The position numbers were made by a program, and so were the translations under genes. Shown here in pieces: positions 4,954 through 12,669 of a stretch of 64,000 nucleotides of DNA; within the stretch, counting starts at the first letter, position 1, and each line of letters begins with the position of its first letter. This DNA comes from Desulfobacula toluolica Tol2 (GTDB taxonomy: Bacteria; Desulfobacterota; Desulfobacteria; Desulfobacterales; Desulfobacteraceae). Under the pieces are notes generated by a model. It worked only from the letters and a program-made list of their open reading frames with translations, did no database searches and was not told the DNA's origin. Where the stretch lies: NCBI RefSeq assembly GCF_000307105.1, contig NC_018645.1, positions 655,001 through 719,000 on the forward strand. Reading direction: 5' to 3'.

Positions 4954-6732
4954 ATGAGAAAATTGAAATCATTTTTTATTTTTAATGTTATAGCACTATC
5001 CCTTTTTTGGGTTTTTAATTCATTAGCTTATGCAGATCTTATTAATTCTGAAGAATGGGAAACAAGTGTTGATTCTGGGTCAGGTTATGGACAATGGACA
5101 TTAAAAGAAAATTCAGACGGCTCTATTAGAACGGATGGAGAGTGGACTTATGTTTATAAAGGAAATTATGTTAATTGCCCTTTTACAAATGCAATAGTTA
5201 CAATATCTGGACAATCTTTATCATTTAGCGCCACAGGCACAGCAACAGCTTCTGGTGCCCCTGTAGGCTATAATACAGCAACCTTTACATTAGACGTTAA
5301 CGGAACAACTTCAGATAATTCTGGAAATGGAAACTATAGTATTTCTTTTAATCAATTTGGTTGGCCATCAAAATATTCAGGCAATTGGCAAGGTAATTTA
5401 ATAAGTGGTGGTGGAATAACAACTACTATATTAAAAACCTACTATCGAGATGCTGATAATGATGGTTATGGTGATCCAAACAGTCCCTACGAAGTTGCTT
5501 CTCAACCTTCAGGATATGTAACAGACAACACTGATTGCAATGATTACGACTCAAGTATTCACCCAGGAGCGACTGAAATCACAGGAGATGGAGTTGACCA
5601 GGACTGCAATGGTGAAGATTCAGAGACTAAGGATTCTGGTAGCGATAATGTAGAAGTATTTATAACACGTTTTTATCAACAATGTCTTAACAGAGAACCT
5701 GACACTGATGGGCTCAATCATTGGATGAATAGCCTAAACAATGGAGATAAGGCAGGGGATGAACTCGCAGAGAATTTTGTTTTCAGTGAAGAGTTTCAGC
5801 ATTTAAATACATCTGATTCTGAGTTTGTAACTATTCTTTATAATGCATTTTTTAATAGAACACCGGATACGGATGGCTATAATCACTGGATGAATCAAAT
5901 TGCCGATGGCATGAGCCGTTCCTCGGTTCTTGACGGATTTACATCGGCTCAGGAATTTATAAATCTTTGTGAAGATTATGGGATTAAAGCAACTTCTTCT
6001 TCAAACGACACGTCTGTTCAAGGGTTTGTTACCCGTTTTTATCAACAATGCCTTAGTCGTGAGCCTGACACTGGAGGACTCAATCATTGGACTAATAGTC
6101 TTTACAACGGTGATCAAGCCGGAGCTGATCTTGCAGAGTCTTTTATTTTCAGTGAAGAGTTTCAGAATCGAAATACATCTGATTCTGAATTTATAACTAT
6201 ACTTTATAAGGCCTTTTTTGATAGAGAACCGGATACATCCGGTTATAATCATTGGATGGATCAAATTGCCAATGATCTAAGCCGTTCCTCGGTTCTTGAC
6301 GGATTTACATCGGCTCAGGAGTTTATAAACCTTTGTGAAAATTATGGGATTAATTCTACTTTTACAGATCCAGAACCATCAGCATGTATTGATTTGATCG
6401 GTTCAAGGTATTCTGTTACAGAAATCAGGAATTTGCAAAATTGTGGTGGACCAACTGCAGATTACGATTATTATAATATTATTAATATCCAGCAAAATGG
6501 TTGCAGTGTTACTTTTTTTGATTCAGAAGGGATATGCGGATCAGGAAACTTATCCGGAACTTCTGCCACAATCACTTCAACCTGGTATGAAGATGGTGGA
6601 ACTGTTGATGCTGTTTATAATGTTACATTCGCAAGTGATGGGTCTTCATTTCAAGGGACAGGAAGTGCTACATGGACGGATGGTTATGACAGCTGTCAAG
6701 CTACTTCAACAATAAAAGGTACAAAATATTAG
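4954..6732 (+). CDS. Secreted MopE-like / DUF4214 tandem-repeat protein (592 aa)
   Basis: Predicted exported protein. Residues 1-27 form a Sec signal peptide ending SLAYA. A beta-rich Ser/Thr/Gly domain follows to about 155. Residues ~162-222 carry a calcium-type DADNDGYGDP motif and the MopE-family putative metal-binding signature TDCNDYDSSIHPGA...DGVDQDCNG. Residues ~230-475 contain two copies of a 122-residue unit, each holding two DUF4214-like segments (FYQQCLNREPDTDGLNHWMN and AFFNRTPDTDGYNHWMNQI). A second beta-rich domain with Cys residues closes the protein. AAAGGAG precedes the ATG. DUF4214 domains are found in surface-layer and adhesin-like proteins; an extracellular adhesive or matrix role is inferred. 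AT-rich like the gene before it. Confidence 0.8.
   Translation: MRKLKSFFIFNVIALSLFWVFNSLAYADLINSEEWETSVDSGSGYGQWTLKENSDGSIRTDGEWTYVYKGNYVNCPFTNAIVTISGQSLSFSATGTATASGAPVGYNTATFTLDVNGTTSDNSGNGNYSISFNQFGWPSKYSGNWQGNLISGGGITTTILKTYYRDADNDGYGDPNSPYEVASQPSGYVTDNTDCNDYDSSIHPGATEITGDGVDQDCNGEDSETKDSGSDNVEVFITRFYQQCLNREPDTDGLNHWMNSLNNGDKAGDELAENFVFSEEFQHLNTSDSEFVTILYNAFFNRTPDTDGYNHWMNQIADGMSRSSVLDGFTSAQEFINLCEDYGIKATSSSNDTSVQGFVTRFYQQCLSREPDTGGLNHWTNSLYNGDQAGADLAESFIFSEEFQNRNTSDSEFITILYKAFFDREPDTSGYNHWMDQIANDLSRSSVLDGFTSAQEFINLCENYGINSTFTDPEPSACIDLIGSRYSVTEIRNLQNCGGPTADYDYYNIINIQQNGCSVTFFDSEGICGSGNLSGTSATITSTWYEDGGTVDAVYNVTFASDGSSFQGTGSATWTDGYDSCQATSTIKGTKY
5647..6356 (+). repeat. Tandem duplication inside the DUF4214 gene, period 366 bp
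   Basis: The unit beginning near 5647 recurs exactly 366 bp later near 6013 (122 codons). The copies differ at scattered sites, but a block of about 40 bases is identical (from 5914 and 6280), pointing to recent duplication or gene conversion. Confidence 0.85.
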
Positions 6733-6917: not shown

Positions 6918-7913
6918 TTATCCATTATTGGTCTCCAGAGTTTCCAAAGCTTCCTTGGCAGCGTCAACTAGGTCTTCATGGTCAAGTTCGGCAAGTTTTT
7001 CTTTGATCCAGTCTGCTGTTTTTCTGTCTCCGGTTTCTCCCAGGGCATAGAGAATATCTCCCTGAACAGGGGGATCGGTTTCATCAAACAGGCTGATCAG
7101 AACGGGGCACAGACGGGCAGCCAGTTTCGGGTCAGTTTCGGCAAGTTCCTCCACGATTACCATGGCTCCCAGCCTGACTGACCAGGTGTCATGCAGTAAA
7201 AGTTTGATAAAGGCGTCAAAAATATTCTGCTTTTCAATCATCTGCCGGGCTATCCAGGATGCGTCCCCCTGTTCGAGAATGTTTTTCAGGGTTCCGGCAC
7301 TTAATTGTGACGGATCACGTCCCACTATCATATTGACAATTTCATCTGCCGTAACATTACCGGTCCATCTGAAATCATCATCAAGGATCAGGCAGGGTGC
7401 TGACATTACGCCGTCTTTTTGTGCGGTTTCACTAAACAAACTGCCGTCAATGATATGAAGATTTATGTTTTTGCAATTCAACGCAATGGGGATGACAGTT
7501 CTGACCACATTGGGACAATGGGGGCACTCAAGAGCAATATAAAGTGTTAACCGCACCGGGATGTCTATTTTATCAAGTGTGCTTTGAACATTCTCGGAAA
7601 GGTCGGATTGGGCCAGCATGGGTGGGGTGCCGTTGACCTGTGACAGGGCGTCAAGAAACGGGTCCAGTTCTTTTTTTAGGGGAAGGGCTGAATAGGTGAT
7701 GTTCTCTTTGAGCAAGAACCCCGGCAGGTCTTTTTCTCCTTTCTCAGATTCAATGACCAGCTTTGATGTGGCATCTGCCATCTGGCGGGTAAAATTTGCA
7801 AATTGAGAGTTCTCAGCGTGATCCGTGGCGATCAGTTTTATCTTGACCGGTTCTTTGATTGTTTGATCCCAGGTTTGGATCAAGGTTTTGGATGCTGTGT
7901 CAAATATGTTCAT
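6918..7913 (-). CDS. Thioredoxin-fold CPHC protein with C-terminal HEAT-like repeats (331 aa)
   Basis: The start is placed at the ATG ending at 7913, preceded by GGAAGG; the open frame to 8024 has no such site. The central part is a glutaredoxin/thioredoxin-like domain of the protein disulfide oxidoreductase or AhpF N-terminal type: ALECPHCPNVVRT gives a redox pair Cys131-Cys134, followed by SAPCLILDD with a further Cys next to the usual cis-Pro region. Residues ~235-331 form short helical repeats (RLGAMVIVEELAE, QGDILYALGETGDRK) of HEAT type. Such two-domain proteins probably act in cytoplasmic disulfide or peroxide chemistry, with the repeats as a docking arm; partner and substrate are unknown. 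Confidence 0.75.
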   Translation of the reverse strand: MNIFDTASKTLIQTWDQTIKEPVKIKLIATDHAENSQFANFTRQMADATSKLVIESEKGEKDLPGFLLKENITYSALPLKKELDPFLDALSQVNGTPPMLAQSDLSENVQSTLDKIDIPVRLTLYIALECPHCPNVVRTVIPIALNCKNINLHIIDGSLFSETAQKDGVMSAPCLILDDDFRWTGNVTADEIVNMIVGRDPSQLSAGTLKNILEQGDASWIARQMIEKQNIFDAFIKLLLHDTWSVRLGAMVIVEELAETDPKLAARLCPVLISLFDETDPPVQGDILYALGETGDRKTADWIKEKLAELDHEDLVDAAKEALETLETNNG

Positions 7914-8110
7914 AGTAAGCCTTCCATTTGATTGTATAAGGTTAGATGTATATCTTGAATACGGTGCATTGCAATCCCTTTTATTTTTATTGCAGGGGTG
8001 ACAGCTCTTCTTTAGCAGATTCATGCTTTTAAATTAAGGGCAAATCATGTAATTATTGAACCTGTAACCGGATTTTAACCTTTATATTGATCTATAATCG
8101 GGCAGAAAAA

Positions 8111-11100
8111 ATGAAATTTATTGCTGACCTTCATGTTCACTCCAAGTATTCAAGGGCTACGGCCAAAAATCTTGATTTTGAAAATCTTTATTATACGGCA
8201 CAGATGAAAGGCATTACGGTTGTCGGAACCGGGGATTTTACCTATCCAGCCTGGATTGACGAGATTGAGTCCAAGATTGAAGAAACCGAGCCGGGAATGT
8301 TTTCCCTGAAAAAAGAGATTGCAAGGGATATCGACAAAACCGTTCCTGAAAATTGCCGGAACCCTGTACGGTTTATTTTGCAGACCGAGATCAGCAATAT
8401 TTACAAGAAAGACGACCGGGTGAGGAAAAACCATAACCTGGTCTATTTTCCCGATATTGCCAGTGTGAAAAAATTCAATGCCAGGCTGGATGCCATCGGT
8501 AACATTAAATCCGACGGCCGTCCCATACTGGGACTGGATGCAGCCGACCTGCTTGCCATCATGCTGGATGTCAATGACAAGGGCTTTTTTGTGCCGGCCC
8601 ACATCTGGACCCCCTGGTTTTCCATGTTCGGGTCAAAATCGGGATTTGATTCCATTGAAGAGTGTTTTGGTTCTTTAAAAGAGCATATCTTTGCCGTTGA
8701 AACGGGATTGTCTTCCGATCCTCCCATGAACTGGCGGATCAAGGATCTGGACAATGTCCGTCTGCTGTCCAATTCAGATGCCCATTCCCCAGGATATCTG
8801 GGACGCAATGCATCCGTGTTTGACACGGAGTTGAGTTTTTTTCATATGCGCCAGGCTCTTGAAAAAAATGATCTTGAACATTACCAGGGTACTTTGGATA
8901 TGTTTCCCCACCAGGGCAAATACCATTATGACGGCCACAGGAAATGCAATATCTGTCTGAATCCCGCCGCCACCGACCAGATTGACGGCATCTGTCCCGA
9001 ATGCGGTAAAAAGGTTACCTATGGAGTGCTCAACCGGGTCCAGGAACTGTCGCAAAGACCGGAAGGGTATGTGCCGGAAAATCGGCATGGATATCAAAGC
9101 ATTATTCCCCTTGCTGATATGCTTTCGGAAATTTTTGAGGTGGGTCCTAAAACCAAAAAAGTGGCAACATATTATCAAAAGGCCATTGAAAATCTTGGGC
9201 CGGAGCTTGGCATCCTTCTGGATAAATCTTTTGAAGAGATAAAAACCGCCAACATACCCCTGCTGGCAGAGGCCGTACAAAAGATGCGAACAGGGGATGT
9301 CAACATTGATCCCGGTTATGACGGCGAATACGGGAAGGTCAACCTTTTTTCCAGGCAGGAAAAAGAACGTTTAAAAGGAGACAACAATCTTTTGTTTAAG
9401 CTTCCTGCCAAAAAAGCAAAAAAAAATGCAAAGGCAGTGGTTAAAAAGCCGGGTGCTGAGAAAAATAATGAAAAAAATCAAAACAATAAAGAAAAGCCCC
9501 GGCAAACAAGACCCGCAAATCATAACCGGGATCTGTTGGCCGGTCTGAATCCTGAACAGCAAAAGGCGGTTGAATCATCTGCAAGGGCCGTGGTTATCCA
9601 GGCCGGACCAGGTACGGGCAAAACCAGAACTTTGACTGCAAAAATTGCCTGGCTGATATCCAAAAAAAATATTGATCCTTTGTCCATCCTTGCCCTGACA
9701 TTTACCAATAAAGCGGCAACACAGCTTGGACAGCGCATGGACAATTATATGACCAAAGCCAAAACACCTGTTCTGGCGGCAACTTTTCATTCTTTTTGCC
9801 TTAAGCTTTTAAAAGAGTACAAGGCATTTGATGCTGTTATTGTTGATGATCCAATAAGGCTTTCACTGGTCAAAGAAGCCATAGAGTCCTTGGAACATAT
9901 TGAAATTACGAAAGAAAACAGTAAAAAGGGTCAGGTAAACAAAACAGATCAATTGATCAGTCTGTGCAAACAAAACTTGCTGAGGCCGGAGGATGATCTT
10001 GAAAAATTCATACCCCTTGAAAAATTCGTACACCAGGGTGAATTAGCGTCATTTAAAAAAATTTATCAAGCCTACCAGGTTCTTTGCAAGGAGCATAATG
10101 TGGTTGATTTTGAAGATCTGATGGCAATGACAATAAACATGCTCAACTGCGAAGAAAATATTCTGGCAAGTGTCCGCAAACAGTATCAATATATTTTTAT
10201 TGATGAATACCAGGATTTGAATTTTGGACAGTATGTGTTTGTCAAATTGATATCACAAGATAACCATATTTTTGTGATTGGTGATCCAGATCAGTCCATA
10301 TACGGGTTCAGAGGATCGGACAATAAATATTTCAAACTATTTGAAGATGATTTTCCAGGATGTGAAAAATTTTTTTTGACTCAAAATTACAGGTCCACCC
10401 AGACCATTCTTGACGCGTCTTTTCAAATGATCAGCAACTCTTTGGACAATGAGGAAAAATTCAAGATTTTTTCAGATGTGGAAACTCAAAAAAAACTGAT
10501 CATCAAGGAGGCAGCAAGTGAAAAGGCTGAAGCCGTAGTCATTGGCAAGATGATTGAAAAGCTTGTGGGGGGAACCTCTTTTTTTTCAATGGACGCGGGC
10601 AAGACCGATCAGGACGAAACAAAAGAGTATTGTTTTGCAGATTTTGCCGTTCTTTATCGAACACGAAAACAGTGCGAGATTTTTATTGATCTGTTTGAAA
10701 AAGAGGGTATTCCTTTTCAGGCAGCCGATAAAAAAAATATGGTTGATATTGAAGGTATCCGGCAATTGATCAGTCTTTGCAGGATCATGTCCCAAAATGA
10801 GTGCTTTATTGATGTTGAGATTGTTTTTGATCATTTTGGCGTTAGGCTGGGTAAAAAAGGAAAAGAAATTTTTCATAAAGCGTATAATGACGCCTGCAAA
10901 ACAAATCAGGATATTCTGGATGAATTTGTGCAAACAGATATCAGCGGGATCAAAGCTGCAACAAGACAGAATATTGTCATGATTGCACAAAAGCTCAAGT
11001 GCCTTCAAGAGGAGATCAGGCAGTGTGACACTGAAACAGGGTTAAGGCTTTTGTTTGAAAAGGCGGATTTAAAACCGATCATTGAAAGCAATGATAAAAC

Positions 11101-11548
11101 AAAGCAAATTTTTGAAAAACTTTTATCCATCGGTATTCTTCACGATGATTTAAGGGGTTTTCTGGATGCGGTTGCCTTGAACCAGGATGCTGATATTTTG
11201 GAGTTTAATACACAAAAAGTCTCTTTAATGACTCTGCATGCTGCCAAAGGGCTTGAATTTCCGGTTGTGTTTGTTGCGGGGTGTGAACAAGGGCTTGTCC
11301 CTTTTGCAAAGGATGGTGAAACCACAGATGATCTTGAAGAAGAGCGTCGTCTGTTCTATGTTGGCATGACACGGGCCATGGACATTCTTTGTTTGACTTA
11401 TGCAAAAAAAAGACGCATATTTGGCACCATTAAAAAAAGGCAACGATCTTTTTTTATTGAGGATATTGAAGCAAAACTGACACAGGTGGAAAAAGCGCCT
11501 GTTAAATTGTCAGTGAAAAAGAAAGCAAAACAACTGGAATTGTTTTGA
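8111..11548 (+). CDS. Fusion of an endonuclease Q-like PHP nuclease with a UvrD/PcrA-type helicase (1145 aa)
   Basis: I use the ATG at 8111; a TTG at 8087 is possible but less likely. Residues 1-410 resemble the TIGR00375/endonuclease Q family: PHP metal motifs ADLHVHSKYS (residues 5-14), GTGDF, LQTEIS, PAHIWTPW and SNSDAHSPG (~220), then a four-Cys zinc site CNIC...CPEC (~280-300). A Lys-rich linker (~425-470) leads to a superfamily 1A helicase: Walker A AGPGTGKTRT (~497), Walker B FIDEYQDL (~693), GDPDQSIYGFRG, QNYRST, LHAAKGLEFPVV (~1040) and FYVGMTRA. EndoQ cuts DNA 5' of deaminated or abasic bases; the helicase would unwind from the nick. Joining them in one chain suggests a repair machine for hypoxanthine, uracil or similar lesions (inference). 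Confidence 0.88.
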   Translation: MKFIADLHVHSKYSRATAKNLDFENLYYTAQMKGITVVGTGDFTYPAWIDEIESKIEETEPGMFSLKKEIARDIDKTVPENCRNPVRFILQTEISNIYKKDDRVRKNHNLVYFPDIASVKKFNARLDAIGNIKSDGRPILGLDAADLLAIMLDVNDKGFFVPAHIWTPWFSMFGSKSGFDSIEECFGSLKEHIFAVETGLSSDPPMNWRIKDLDNVRLLSNSDAHSPGYLGRNASVFDTELSFFHMRQALEKNDLEHYQGTLDMFPHQGKYHYDGHRKCNICLNPAATDQIDGICPECGKKVTYGVLNRVQELSQRPEGYVPENRHGYQSIIPLADMLSEIFEVGPKTKKVATYYQKAIENLGPELGILLDKSFEEIKTANIPLLAEAVQKMRTGDVNIDPGYDGEYGKVNLFSRQEKERLKGDNNLLFKLPAKKAKKNAKAVVKKPGAEKNNEKNQNNKEKPRQTRPANHNRDLLAGLNPEQQKAVESSARAVVIQAGPGTGKTRTLTAKIAWLISKKNIDPLSILALTFTNKAATQLGQRMDNYMTKAKTPVLAATFHSFCLKLLKEYKAFDAVIVDDPIRLSLVKEAIESLEHIEITKENSKKGQVNKTDQLISLCKQNLLRPEDDLEKFIPLEKFVHQGELASFKKIYQAYQVLCKEHNVVDFEDLMAMTINMLNCEENILASVRKQYQYIFIDEYQDLNFGQYVFVKLISQDNHIFVIGDPDQSIYGFRGSDNKYFKLFEDDFPGCEKFFLTQNYRSTQTILDASFQMISNSLDNEEKFKIFSDVETQKKLIIKEAASEKAEAVVIGKMIEKLVGGTSFFSMDAGKTDQDETKEYCFADFAVLYRTRKQCEIFIDLFEKEGIPFQAADKKNMVDIEGIRQLISLCRIMSQNECFIDVEIVFDHFGVRLGKKGKEIFHKAYNDACKTNQDILDEFVQTDISGIKAATRQNIVMIAQKLKCLQEEIRQCDTETGLRLLFEKADLKPIIESNDKTKQIFEKLLSIGILHDDLRGFLDAVALNQDADILEFNTQKVSLMTLHAAKGLEFPVVFVAGCEQGLVPFAKDGETTDDLEEERRLFYVGMTRAMDILCLTYAKKRRIFGTIKKRQRSFFIEDIEAKLTQVEKAPVKLSVKKKAKQLELF

Positions 11549-11588: not shown

Positions 11589-11990
11589 ATGGAATCTAAA
11601 ATAGTTGCAAAAGAGATAGTGAAAGAAAAAATAGTCAGGGAAATTGAACTGGAAAATAATCAGACTCTTGTGATATCAGATTGGTCCAGAAAAGTTAGTG
11701 AAGATGCTTATGTGGTTATCATGAAGGCGAATATGGATATTAAAATCAAACAAGATCTGTTTTCTGATGAACCCCTGTCTGAGTTTAAATTTGAAGATAT
11801 CCTGGCGACTCTGGGTGGCAATGCAATGTATGAATACAGGGTTGAGCGCAACTTTATCATGGATCATGAAAAAGACGATGTGTTTGACGCGCTTGTCAAA
11901 ACCTTTCTGGACAATCTGGGAAAATATGTGGCAAACTCCAAGTTTCCGGGAAAATTTATCTTAAAAGCATACAAAGACAAAAACAAATAA
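11589..11990 (+). CDS. Small protein of unknown function (133 aa)
   Basis: Not recognised. It follows the EndoQ-helicase gene by 40 bp in the same direction with a GCAGGAT site before the ATG, so it may be co-transcribed with it. The product is charged and soluble: an N-terminal strand-rich half (EIELENNQTLVISDWSRKV) and a C-terminal helical half (DVFDALVKTFLDNLGKYV). No cysteines, signal peptide or membrane segment. Codon use agrees with a real gene. A role with the repair fusion is possible only by position. Confidence 0.7.
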   Translation: MESKIVAKEIVKEKIVREIELENNQTLVISDWSRKVSEDAYVVIMKANMDIKIKQDLFSDEPLSEFKFEDILATLGGNAMYEYRVERNFIMDHEKDDVFDALVKTFLDNLGKYVANSKFPGKFILKAYKDKNK

Positions 11991-12023
11991 CTGCCATGGG
12001 CATATTGGGTATTTTATTTAAGA

Positions 12024-12080
12024 TTTGCCCACAACAAAGATTGAAAGTCTCTGTGTGAATTTTTTAAGACTTTCATATAA
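12024..12080 (+). repeat. Dispersed hairpin repeat, copy A
   Basis: Member of an intergenic repeat family found at five places in this window. Core order: GCCCACAACAAAG, then arms TGAAAGTCT (12042-12050) and AGACTTTCA (12067-12075) around a 16-base loop, then TATAA. This copy sits immediately ahead of the lytic transglycosylase gene, within its probable leader. A small palindrome CTGCCATGGGCA lies about 25 bases upstream. Confidence 0.75.
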
Positions 12081-12090
12081 ATTGGGGAAA

Positions 12091-12669
12091 ATGGTAAAAA
12101 AAACAGGCCTTTTTTTATGGATTTGTTTTTATTGCATGGTTTGTGCTGGCAATGCTGCCGGCGATATCTATATGTATATTGACGGCAGCGGTATTATCCA
12201 TTTTACAAATGTCCCCACATCAACTGATTACAAAGTATACATCAAAGAAAAACCCAAAAAAATAAACTCTCTGGCCTATATTCGCAAATATGATGATTTT
12301 ATCAAGAAAGCCCAAAAAAAATATGGTGTTGAGTTTTTTTTGATCAAGGCGGTGATTAAAGCAGAATCAGATTTTAACGAAAGGGCGGTTTCAAAAAGAG
12401 GCGCAAAAGGCCTTATGCAGATTATGCCTGCCAATTTTAAATCCCTTTTTGTGGAAGACCCTTTTAATCCTTTGCAGAATATCATGGGGGGAACCCTTTA
12501 TCTTAAGCGGCTGTTGATGCGCTACGAGCATAAACTTCCACTGGTGCTTGCAGCTTATAATGCAGGGCCACAGGCTGTTGATAAGTATCAGCGGATTCCC
12601 CCGTACAAAGAAACACAAAATTATGTCAGAAAAGTGATGAAAATTTATAGTCAGTATAAAAATTCCTGA
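12091..12669 (+). CDS. Lytic transglycosylase with N-terminal DUF4124-like region (192 aa)
   Basis: Cleaves peptidoglycan glycan strands in the periplasm. The start is the ATG at 12091 with GGGGA just upstream; it begins the signal peptide (hydrophobic FLWICFYCMVCAGNA). A DUF4124-like segment YMYIDGSGIIHFTNVPTS follows, then the SLT domain: AVIKAESDFNERAVSKRGA with the catalytic Glu, GLMQIMP, NPLQNIMGGTLYL and AAYNAGP. Length is typical for short Slt-type enzymes of this group. The gene ends 6 bp before the convergent galU. Confidence 0.92.
   Translation: MVKKTGLFLWICFYCMVCAGNAAGDIYMYIDGSGIIHFTNVPTSTDYKVYIKEKPKKINSLAYIRKYDDFIKKAQKKYGVEFFLIKAVIKAESDFNERAVSKRGAKGLMQIMPANFKSLFVEDPFNPLQNIMGGTLYLKRLLMRYEHKLPLVLAAYNAGPQAVDKYQRIPPYKETQNYVRKVMKIYSQYKNS

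Follow-up and report, generated by a model that had tools for sequence, protein, structure and literature searches.

A gene in a 64,000-nucleotide stretch of the Desulfobacula toluolica Tol2 genome (NC_018645.1, positions 655,001 to 719,000 of the forward strand; the window hereafter means this whole stretch) was found to encode a real, conserved fusion of an endonuclease Q (EndoQ) domain and a UvrD-type helicase, in which the tested active-site residues of both halves are kept. The fusion represents a widespread bacterial EndoQ variant that carries a UvrD-type motor and a clamp-type motif, and for which a repair function is predicted. With a probability of roughly 0.68, it would act as a clamp-tethered, single-chain nick-and-unwind enzyme in the excision repair of abasic sites and of deaminated bases (uracil, hypoxanthine, xanthine).

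In the proposed mechanism, the EndoQ part would flip out the damaged base and cut the bond on its 5′ side to leave a 3′-OH, as has been shown for other EndoQs and as the conserved residues and the fold suggest here, and a flexible linker would pass the nick to the motor. Motors of the UvrD/PcrA/Rep type move 3′ to 5′; loaded at the nick on the unbroken strand, this one would travel in that direction and displace the lesion-bearing strand, running ahead of a polymerase that extends the 3′-OH. Through its C-terminal QLELF the enzyme would attach to the beta sliding clamp, much as archaeal EndoQ is anchored to PCNA by its PIP box, and it would thereby be brought together with the polymerase and ligase. 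EndoQ products carry a 5′-phosphate and a 3′-OH, and the pathway proposed for them continues with a second cut by EndoV, after which a helicase activity removes the damaged piece (PMC4357722; here and below, statements from cited papers rest on the parts of their texts that were available). With no EndoV found in the family of the window, that step would have to be replaced by a flap cut or by Pol I-type processing.

The fusion protein and its conserved residues

An earlier model-made reading of the sequence (the first-pass annotation) had described a single 1145-residue frame with PHP motifs, a four-cysteine zinc site, a lysine-rich linker and SF1A helicase motifs. The single frame was confirmed, as was the PHP-then-UvrD domain order in profile searches (Table 1); an in-frame TTG lies upstream of the start, at 8087, and the genome is a single contig of 5.2 Mb. 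Residue conservation was assayed in 38 aligned rows, namely the window protein and 37 fused proteins 35–77% identical to it, and an alignment of 38 rows was also used to build an AlphaFold2 model. Its mean predicted local distance difference test (pLDDT) score was 83.4, with values <50 at residues 423–472, which are the lysine-rich linker, 821–836 and 1130–1145; as its predicted TM-score was 0.59, the relative placement of the two halves was left uninterpreted.

Residues 5–421 matched the Pyrococcus enzyme PfuEndoQ (PDB 5zb8) with an E value of 8.7e-47 (phmmer), and residues 5–410 matched TIGR00375 with 6.6e-53 (NCBIfam). The structure check proposed earlier agreed, since the modelled EndoQ half matched 5zb8_B with a TMt of 0.88 and a root-mean-square deviation of 2.5 (Foldseek), although the fold matches of both halves are not independent of sequence homology. 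After alignment all the metal residues were present: D6, H8, H10, E93, H108, H164, E197 and D223 of the window protein correspond to D6, H8, H10, E76, H84, H139, E167 and D193 of PfuEndoQ, and H225 completes the SDAH motif. E93, H108, H164, E197, D223 and H225 were kept in all 38 rows and D6, H8 and H10 in 37, the remaining row being gapped at all three. In a larger set of 146 EndoQ domains (115 fused, 27 alone, 3 split and 1 cut by a contig end), the same six residues were invariant, and position 8 was Gln in one fused row. The pocket residues H164, G199 and S201 are identical to H139, G169 and S171 of PfuEndoQ and kept in the 38-row set; these three bar regular T and A from the PfuEndoQ pocket, and E76A, H84A and H139A each abolish its activity (PMC8307549).

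The zinc site had been assigned to four cysteines, C279, C282, C295 and C298, and this assignment has to be revised. C282 is Cys in just 16 of the 38 fused rows, whereas position 276, aligned with the zinc-binding C249 of PfuEndoQ, is His in every one of them. Three of the four Pfu zinc cysteines are kept in the window protein and the fourth is replaced by this His, so that the strict four-Cys pattern is absent and the site is probably of a His-Cys3 type (H276, C279, C295, C298). As His can bind zinc, a change of ligand is likelier than a loss of the site. Position 276 was His in 143, Cys in 1, Asn in 1 and a gap in 1 of the 146 domains, and His in 26 of 27 stand-alone bacterial EndoQ rows. 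The Cys cluster has been named a possible signature of the EndoQ family (PMC4357722), and a His in place of the zinc Cys at position 276 is a possible hallmark of the bacterial members. As a separate observation, the N-terminal extensions of loci L073, L075, L076, L095 and L096 resemble, by eye, an open frame preceding the start.

For the helicase half, both UvrD domains were recovered from Pfam (PF00580 at residues 479–749, E 3.2e-69; PF13361 at 756–1099, E 1.1e-43), and the model matched UvrD (2is1_A) with a TMt of 0.87. Across motifs Q to VI, Q483, K504, T505, H560, D698, E699, Q701, D702, Q728, R761, H1043, K1046, G1047, E1049 and R1088 were kept in 38 of 38 fused rows, in agreement with the SF1A motifs read earlier. 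The top NCBIfam model was that of PcrA (TIGR01073, E 6.6e-115, profile positions 1–641 of 725), and the half is best classed, from its sequence, as a divergent PcrA relative and not as PcrA itself. The C-terminal Tudor region of UvrD binds RNA polymerase (PMC7585439); since the PcrA profile match stops at position 641, this region seems absent from the fusion. UvrD-like frames with about 90–375 residues preceding the helicase match were also noticed at L101 (376–3423, minus strand), L145, L139 and L152; these residues may be an additional domain or simply open frame.

The protein ends in QLELF, which was not among the earlier observations and is likely a replication-clamp tag, as its sequence and position suggest. 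A strict motif, Q[LMI]x[LF]F within the last 12 residues, was present in 35 of the 38 alignment rows (L062 has QLDLL instead, L068 is degraded there, and L069 is contig-cut) and in 35 of 39 fused loci of the window's phylum when the window was omitted and the duplicate L103 and the contig-cut L119 were counted. In the fused rows it was confined to the chain end (35 anywhere, 35 terminal). Of the 24 rows classed as stand-alone EndoQ, 11 also carried it behind the EndoQ core; one of the 24 (L054) is really a contig-cut fusion, and L073 was left uncounted for its longer frame. Among 52 helicases that lack EndoQ (a set with E. coli UvrD and Rep in it twice), just one, L052, had the motif, and it belongs to a split fusion, of which it forms the helicase half. 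None of 483 other open reading frames (ORFs) of at least 150 residues within L037–L096, some of which are not genes, carried it. A relaxed form occurred in 4 of 867 other ORFs, from which EndoQ- and UvrD-like ones had been removed by pattern, and in 1 of the 52 helicases.

These endings fit the bacterial clamp motif, with its consensus QL[S/D]LF and broader form QxxLF (PMC12309361). A C-terminal PIP box lets archaeal EndoQ bind PCNA, which stimulates the enzyme, and beta-clamp motifs have already been noticed in bacterial EndoQ homologues (PMC4858679), so that a clamp motif in bacterial EndoQ is known; no description of one placed behind a helicase was found in the available parts of the open-licence EndoQ literature.

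Table 1. Features of the fusion gene, its downstream neighbours and the UDG-like gene of the same genome.
Feature	Position	Strand	Remarks
EndoQ-UvrD fusion gene	8111–11548 including stop (coding to 11545)	+	1145 aa, zero internal stops
EndoQ domain, residues 1–421	8111–9373	+	phmmer to PfuEndoQ, TIGR00375, Foldseek, residue mapping, conservation
Lys-rich disordered linker, residues 423–472	9377–9526	+	pLDDT <50; Lys richness judged by eye
UvrD/PcrA-type SF1A helicase, residues 479–1129	9545–11497	+	PF00580, PF13361, TIGR01073, Foldseek, motif residues
C-terminal QLELF, residues 1141–1145	11531–11545	+	sliding-clamp-binding-like motif ending the low-confidence tail 1130–1145
Small conserved gene, 133 aa	11589–11990	+	neighbour, excluded from the system
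SLT transglycosylase-like gene	12025–12669	+	PF01464 6.3e-30, weak DUF4124; excluded from the system
UDG-like protein, window's genome	G000:C1:2874500-2878000 (L239:1510-2145)	minus	adjoins a phage-integrase-family gene (XerC-like by eye)

Spread and origin of the fusion

TIGR00375 was matched in 54 of 58 relatives, and the matching open frames within the window's order were mostly of fusion length. In a phylum sample of 394 genomes it was matched in 263, and the EndoQ frames fell, among the matches listed, mostly into two classes of about 415–480 and 940–1170 residues; EndoQ occurs alone in many relatives. A further scan of genome contigs, for which the EndoQ parts of 15 fused rows were aligned as the query, confirmed at least 590 relatives, and the best 80 loci were retained. 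These comprised 72 fused loci, 2 fused but contig-cut, 3 with the halves in adjacent frames and 3 with EndoQ alone, a composition that gives no estimate of the fused share because the retained loci are those most similar to a fused query. The premise that EndoQ usually stands alone suits the characterised archaeal and Bacillus enzymes, but not the best-matching bacterial loci, 74 of 80 of which are fused, nor the window's order.

The fused members bear 11 bacterial phylum names as well as unranked ones such as KSB1; several phyla are represented through metagenome-assembled genomes (MAGs), and records titled 'Deltaproteobacteria' were ranked by name, some as Myxococcota. Some named contigs duplicate other genomes (L043/L180 and L050/L170, with zero branches). 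Going by record titles, isolates with the fusion are, for example, Desulfonema magnum, Saccharothrix, Saccharopolyspora, Micromonospora, Nocardiopsis and Rhodococcus rhodnii, and the EndoQ part of the window protein is 88% and 87% identical to those of two Desulfobacula MAGs. In Omnitrophota L200 and Elusimicrobiota L220 the halves are encoded side by side as separate genes; in L200 both have a clamp-type end (QLTLF, and QLKLF plus two residues), which may reflect fission or a state before fusion. Among the 72 fused loci, the helicase frame is interrupted in L172 and L191. Two broken fusions were also observed, one with an in-frame stop just ahead of the helicase (L052:4587-7823) and one with a frame change in an A-rich linker stretch (L171:50-3534); sequencing error, a pseudogene or fission may account for them.

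Trees were quick or FastTree builds, in which long branches (L062, L068, L052 and L064) and long-branch joins were flagged; the stand-alone helicases came from the window's phylum and E. coli, and RecB/AddA-like and partial rows (L003–L005, L114, L122, L156) and the short loci L002–L036 were omitted. In the tree of 90 helicases, 49 stand-alone members were separated from 40 fused and 1 split by a branch marked 99, and the same single split (again 99) divided 105 fused and 4 split members from 49 alone when the collection loci were added (158 helicases). On the EndoQ trees, 17 stand-alone forms split off at 99, and the remainder were fused with scattered stand-alone or split members, giving 6 changes of the fused/alone label among 66 rows and 7 among 146. 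The simplest reading would be a single fusion followed by repeated separations or helicase losses; several independent fusions are unsupported, as the helicase trees give a single fused clade.

Compared with known enzymes, the fusion has in common with archaeal EndoQ (PfuEndoQ and TkoEndoQ; COG1379, TIGR00375) residues 5–421, the metal and pocket residues, the zinc-binding region and a C-terminal clamp-type motif. It differs in that the crystallised PfuEndoQ has 400 residues and no helicase, in the His for one zinc Cys, and in the clamp-type motif, which trails the helicase in the fusion and the EndoQ core in Archaea. Bacterial stand-alone EndoQs (Bacillus pumilus; loci L075–L096) share the domain and the His-Cys3 pattern, and several of them likewise end in QLxLF, but they have no helicase, and 17 stand-alone forms lie beyond the branch marked 99; activity of the B. 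pumilus enzyme has been reported (PMC6202378). With UvrD, PcrA and Rep, the fusion shares the domains, the tested motif residues and the fold, while its helicase clade is separate from the 49 stand-alone ones. Alternative excision repair that relies on UV damage endonuclease, or on EndoQ and a separate helicase, likewise proceeds by a 5′ nick and removal of the lesion strand, which the fusion would combine on one chain; the version with an EndoV step before the helicase (PMC4357722) differs in that EndoV was not found in the window's genome. Published accounts describe EndoQ as chiefly an archaeal enzyme that is found in limited groups, or in some bacteria (PMC4357722, PMC6202378, PMC11354406). 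No description of an EndoQ-UvrD fusion was found in the available parts of the open-licence EndoQ literature, including PMC4357722, PMC8307549, PMC4858679, PMC3820547, PMC6202378 and PMC11354406, although Fig. 9A of PMC4357722, which gives bacterial homologues with their lengths, a Desulfovibrio protein among them, may already draw one.

Deamination repair in the window's family and neighbouring genes

Within the window's family (f1), an EndoQ match was obtained in 32 of 35 genomes, and EndoV was found in none of the 35, the window's genome included. Matches to PF03167, the uracil-DNA glycosylase (UDG) profile, were obtained in 29 of 35 f1 genomes, none better than 1e-14; in the other families of the order, 21 of 23 genomes gave matches at 1e-22 or better, and the E. 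coli and B. subtilis controls were recovered. GE[AG]PG, which we take to be the UDG catalytic motif, and the paired cysteines were missing from all 12 f1 UDG-like proteins read (that of the window's genome and 11 others, L254–L264), and were present in 5 of 5 UDG proteins from other families. The f1 proteins retain a C-terminal HPS/HPxxL region, and their relation to family-4 UDG rests on a TIGR00758 match below its cut-off. Possibly, this protein is a decayed family-4 UDG with a new role. The repair-gene searches in f1 covered EndoQ, EndoV and UDG.

The fusion is followed in the window by the small gene and the SLT-like gene, the former of which the first-pass annotation had put forward as a possible helper. 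The small gene was matched in 38 of 58 relatives and in none of the 4 relatives without an EndoQ match; this joint absence carries little weight, because two of the four genomes are 77–78% complete and the genes are often neighbours. In 25 of its 38 carrier genomes it directly follows the fusion; among its 13 other places, the one in G028 is beside a contig-cut fusion (and would be the 26th) and that in G013 is at a contig end. Of the places away from the fusion, 8 were read, and in 5 of these it stands directly upstream of an SLT-like gene (2 by Pfam, 3 by eye), a pairing seen in L240, L241, L245, L246 and L247 and at 11589–12669 of the window. A helper role is thus unsupported. The AlphaFold model of the small protein was confident (pLDDT 89.3), comparison of it with the PDB gave no match down to the limit of E 0.001, and the protein had no Pfam or NCBIfam match at the limits applied.

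On the other side of the fusion, a divergently oriented gene (6918–8024, minus strand) encodes a protein with a thioredoxin_3 domain and a sub-threshold HEAT_2 match. Farther upstream, at 4954–6732, lies the gene of a 592-residue protein with a signal-like start and a twice-repeated segment, FVTRFYQQCLxREPDTxGLNHWxNSL, which is presumably DUF4214-like.

Alternative explanations and meaning of the fusion

The tested active-site residues of nuclease and helicase alike are in place and conserved in the fusion, and a single-chain incision and unwinding enzyme, as first suggested, is the best-supported interpretation of these results; its enzymatic action is predicted. Several observations weigh against it. 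Being fused does not by itself prove that the two activities work jointly and simultaneously on the same DNA, and for every fused member activity is read from sequence and fold. The curated cut-offs were reached by neither half, as the window protein scored 180.4 bits against 326.6 for TIGR00375, which no genome of the 394 in the phylum sample reached, and 385.1 against 911.2 for TIGR01073. The 6–7 changes between fused and alone suggest that the helicase half is often dispensed with. The clamp-type end is degraded in L068 and reads QLDLL in L062; outside the phylum sample its strict form was present in only 40 of 65 complete fused proteins (the 72 fused minus 7 cut or interrupted), the relaxed form being present in 60. 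In the Actinomycetota fusions (within L199–L238), the strict form was found in 0 of 17 and the relaxed one (QLRLL, QLRLI and similar) in 17 of 17, and these QLxLL/I-like ends may reflect a lineage-specific clamp pocket. A genome of the window's own genus (G001, 97% complete) has no EndoQ match and a UDG-like protein without the motif, which points either to an unseen repair route or to a gene missing from the assembly. Finally, most other families of the order carry the fusion alongside a good UDG match, so that the fusion is no general replacement of UDG.

Some of these points would suit two halves that work as independent enzymes and are joined mainly so that both are recruited to the clamp, with EndoQ nicking damaged DNA and the helicase having a separate job, e.g., as an accessory helicase in replication or recombination. 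Of the two, the helicase half is the faster to diverge (the path from the window to L039 is 0.32 on the helicase tree vs. 0.18 on the EndoQ tree), EndoQ stands alone in many relatives, and the label changes point the same way. Such independence is nevertheless unlikely, as the fused helicases form a single clade spanning 11 phylum names, were just fused to or adjoining EndoQ among the portion of helicase matches examined, and keep the tested motor residues invariant. Markedly less probable is a clamp-bound strand nickase for replication-linked repair of mismatches or misincorporated bases, with deaminated bases as a side substrate. While the clamp motif would fit it, and a nickase with UvrD presumably follows the logic of mismatch excision, the conserved pocket residues fit deaminated bases, and the data gave no link to MutS or MutL, for which searches were not made.

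An antiviral role for bacterial EndoQ has been mentioned as possible (PMC8307549), and PADLOC GajB models matched the helicase half at 8.4e-91, as would suit an anti-phage enzyme that is Gabija-like (GajAB) or attacks phage DNA containing dU or dI. The GajB match is explained by the shared UvrD domain, and the three nearest genes (6918–8024, 11589–11990 and 12025–12669) have no nuclease domain in Pfam. The EndoQ part gave no tblastn match (limit 1e-5) among 50,697 phage and 72,556 plasmid records. In addition, defence genes are usually patchy, whereas TIGR00375 is matched in 54 of the 58 relatives. A defence function was therefore rejected as very improbable.

Returning to the clamp-tethered repair enzyme, the presence of the fusion in many phyla points to a predicted one-protein repair route and not to a local oddity. 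Tentatively, and at somewhat less than even odds, many bacterial phyla may possess a clamp-tethered pathway in one protein, which would make the nick 5′ of a deaminated base and itself unwind the strand with the damage, and in f1, where UDG appears decayed and EndoV was not found, cells may rely mainly on this pathway against the deamination of cytosine and adenine, so that uracil would be repaired there without a glycosylase. If the mechanism is true, the nick, the strand removal and the clamp docking for deaminated DNA would be united on one chain, and the fate of DNA after the EndoQ nick would become testable with a single purified protein. A family of probable sulfate reducers in which neither an intact UDG nor EndoV was detected would thereby gain a plausible route for uracil repair.

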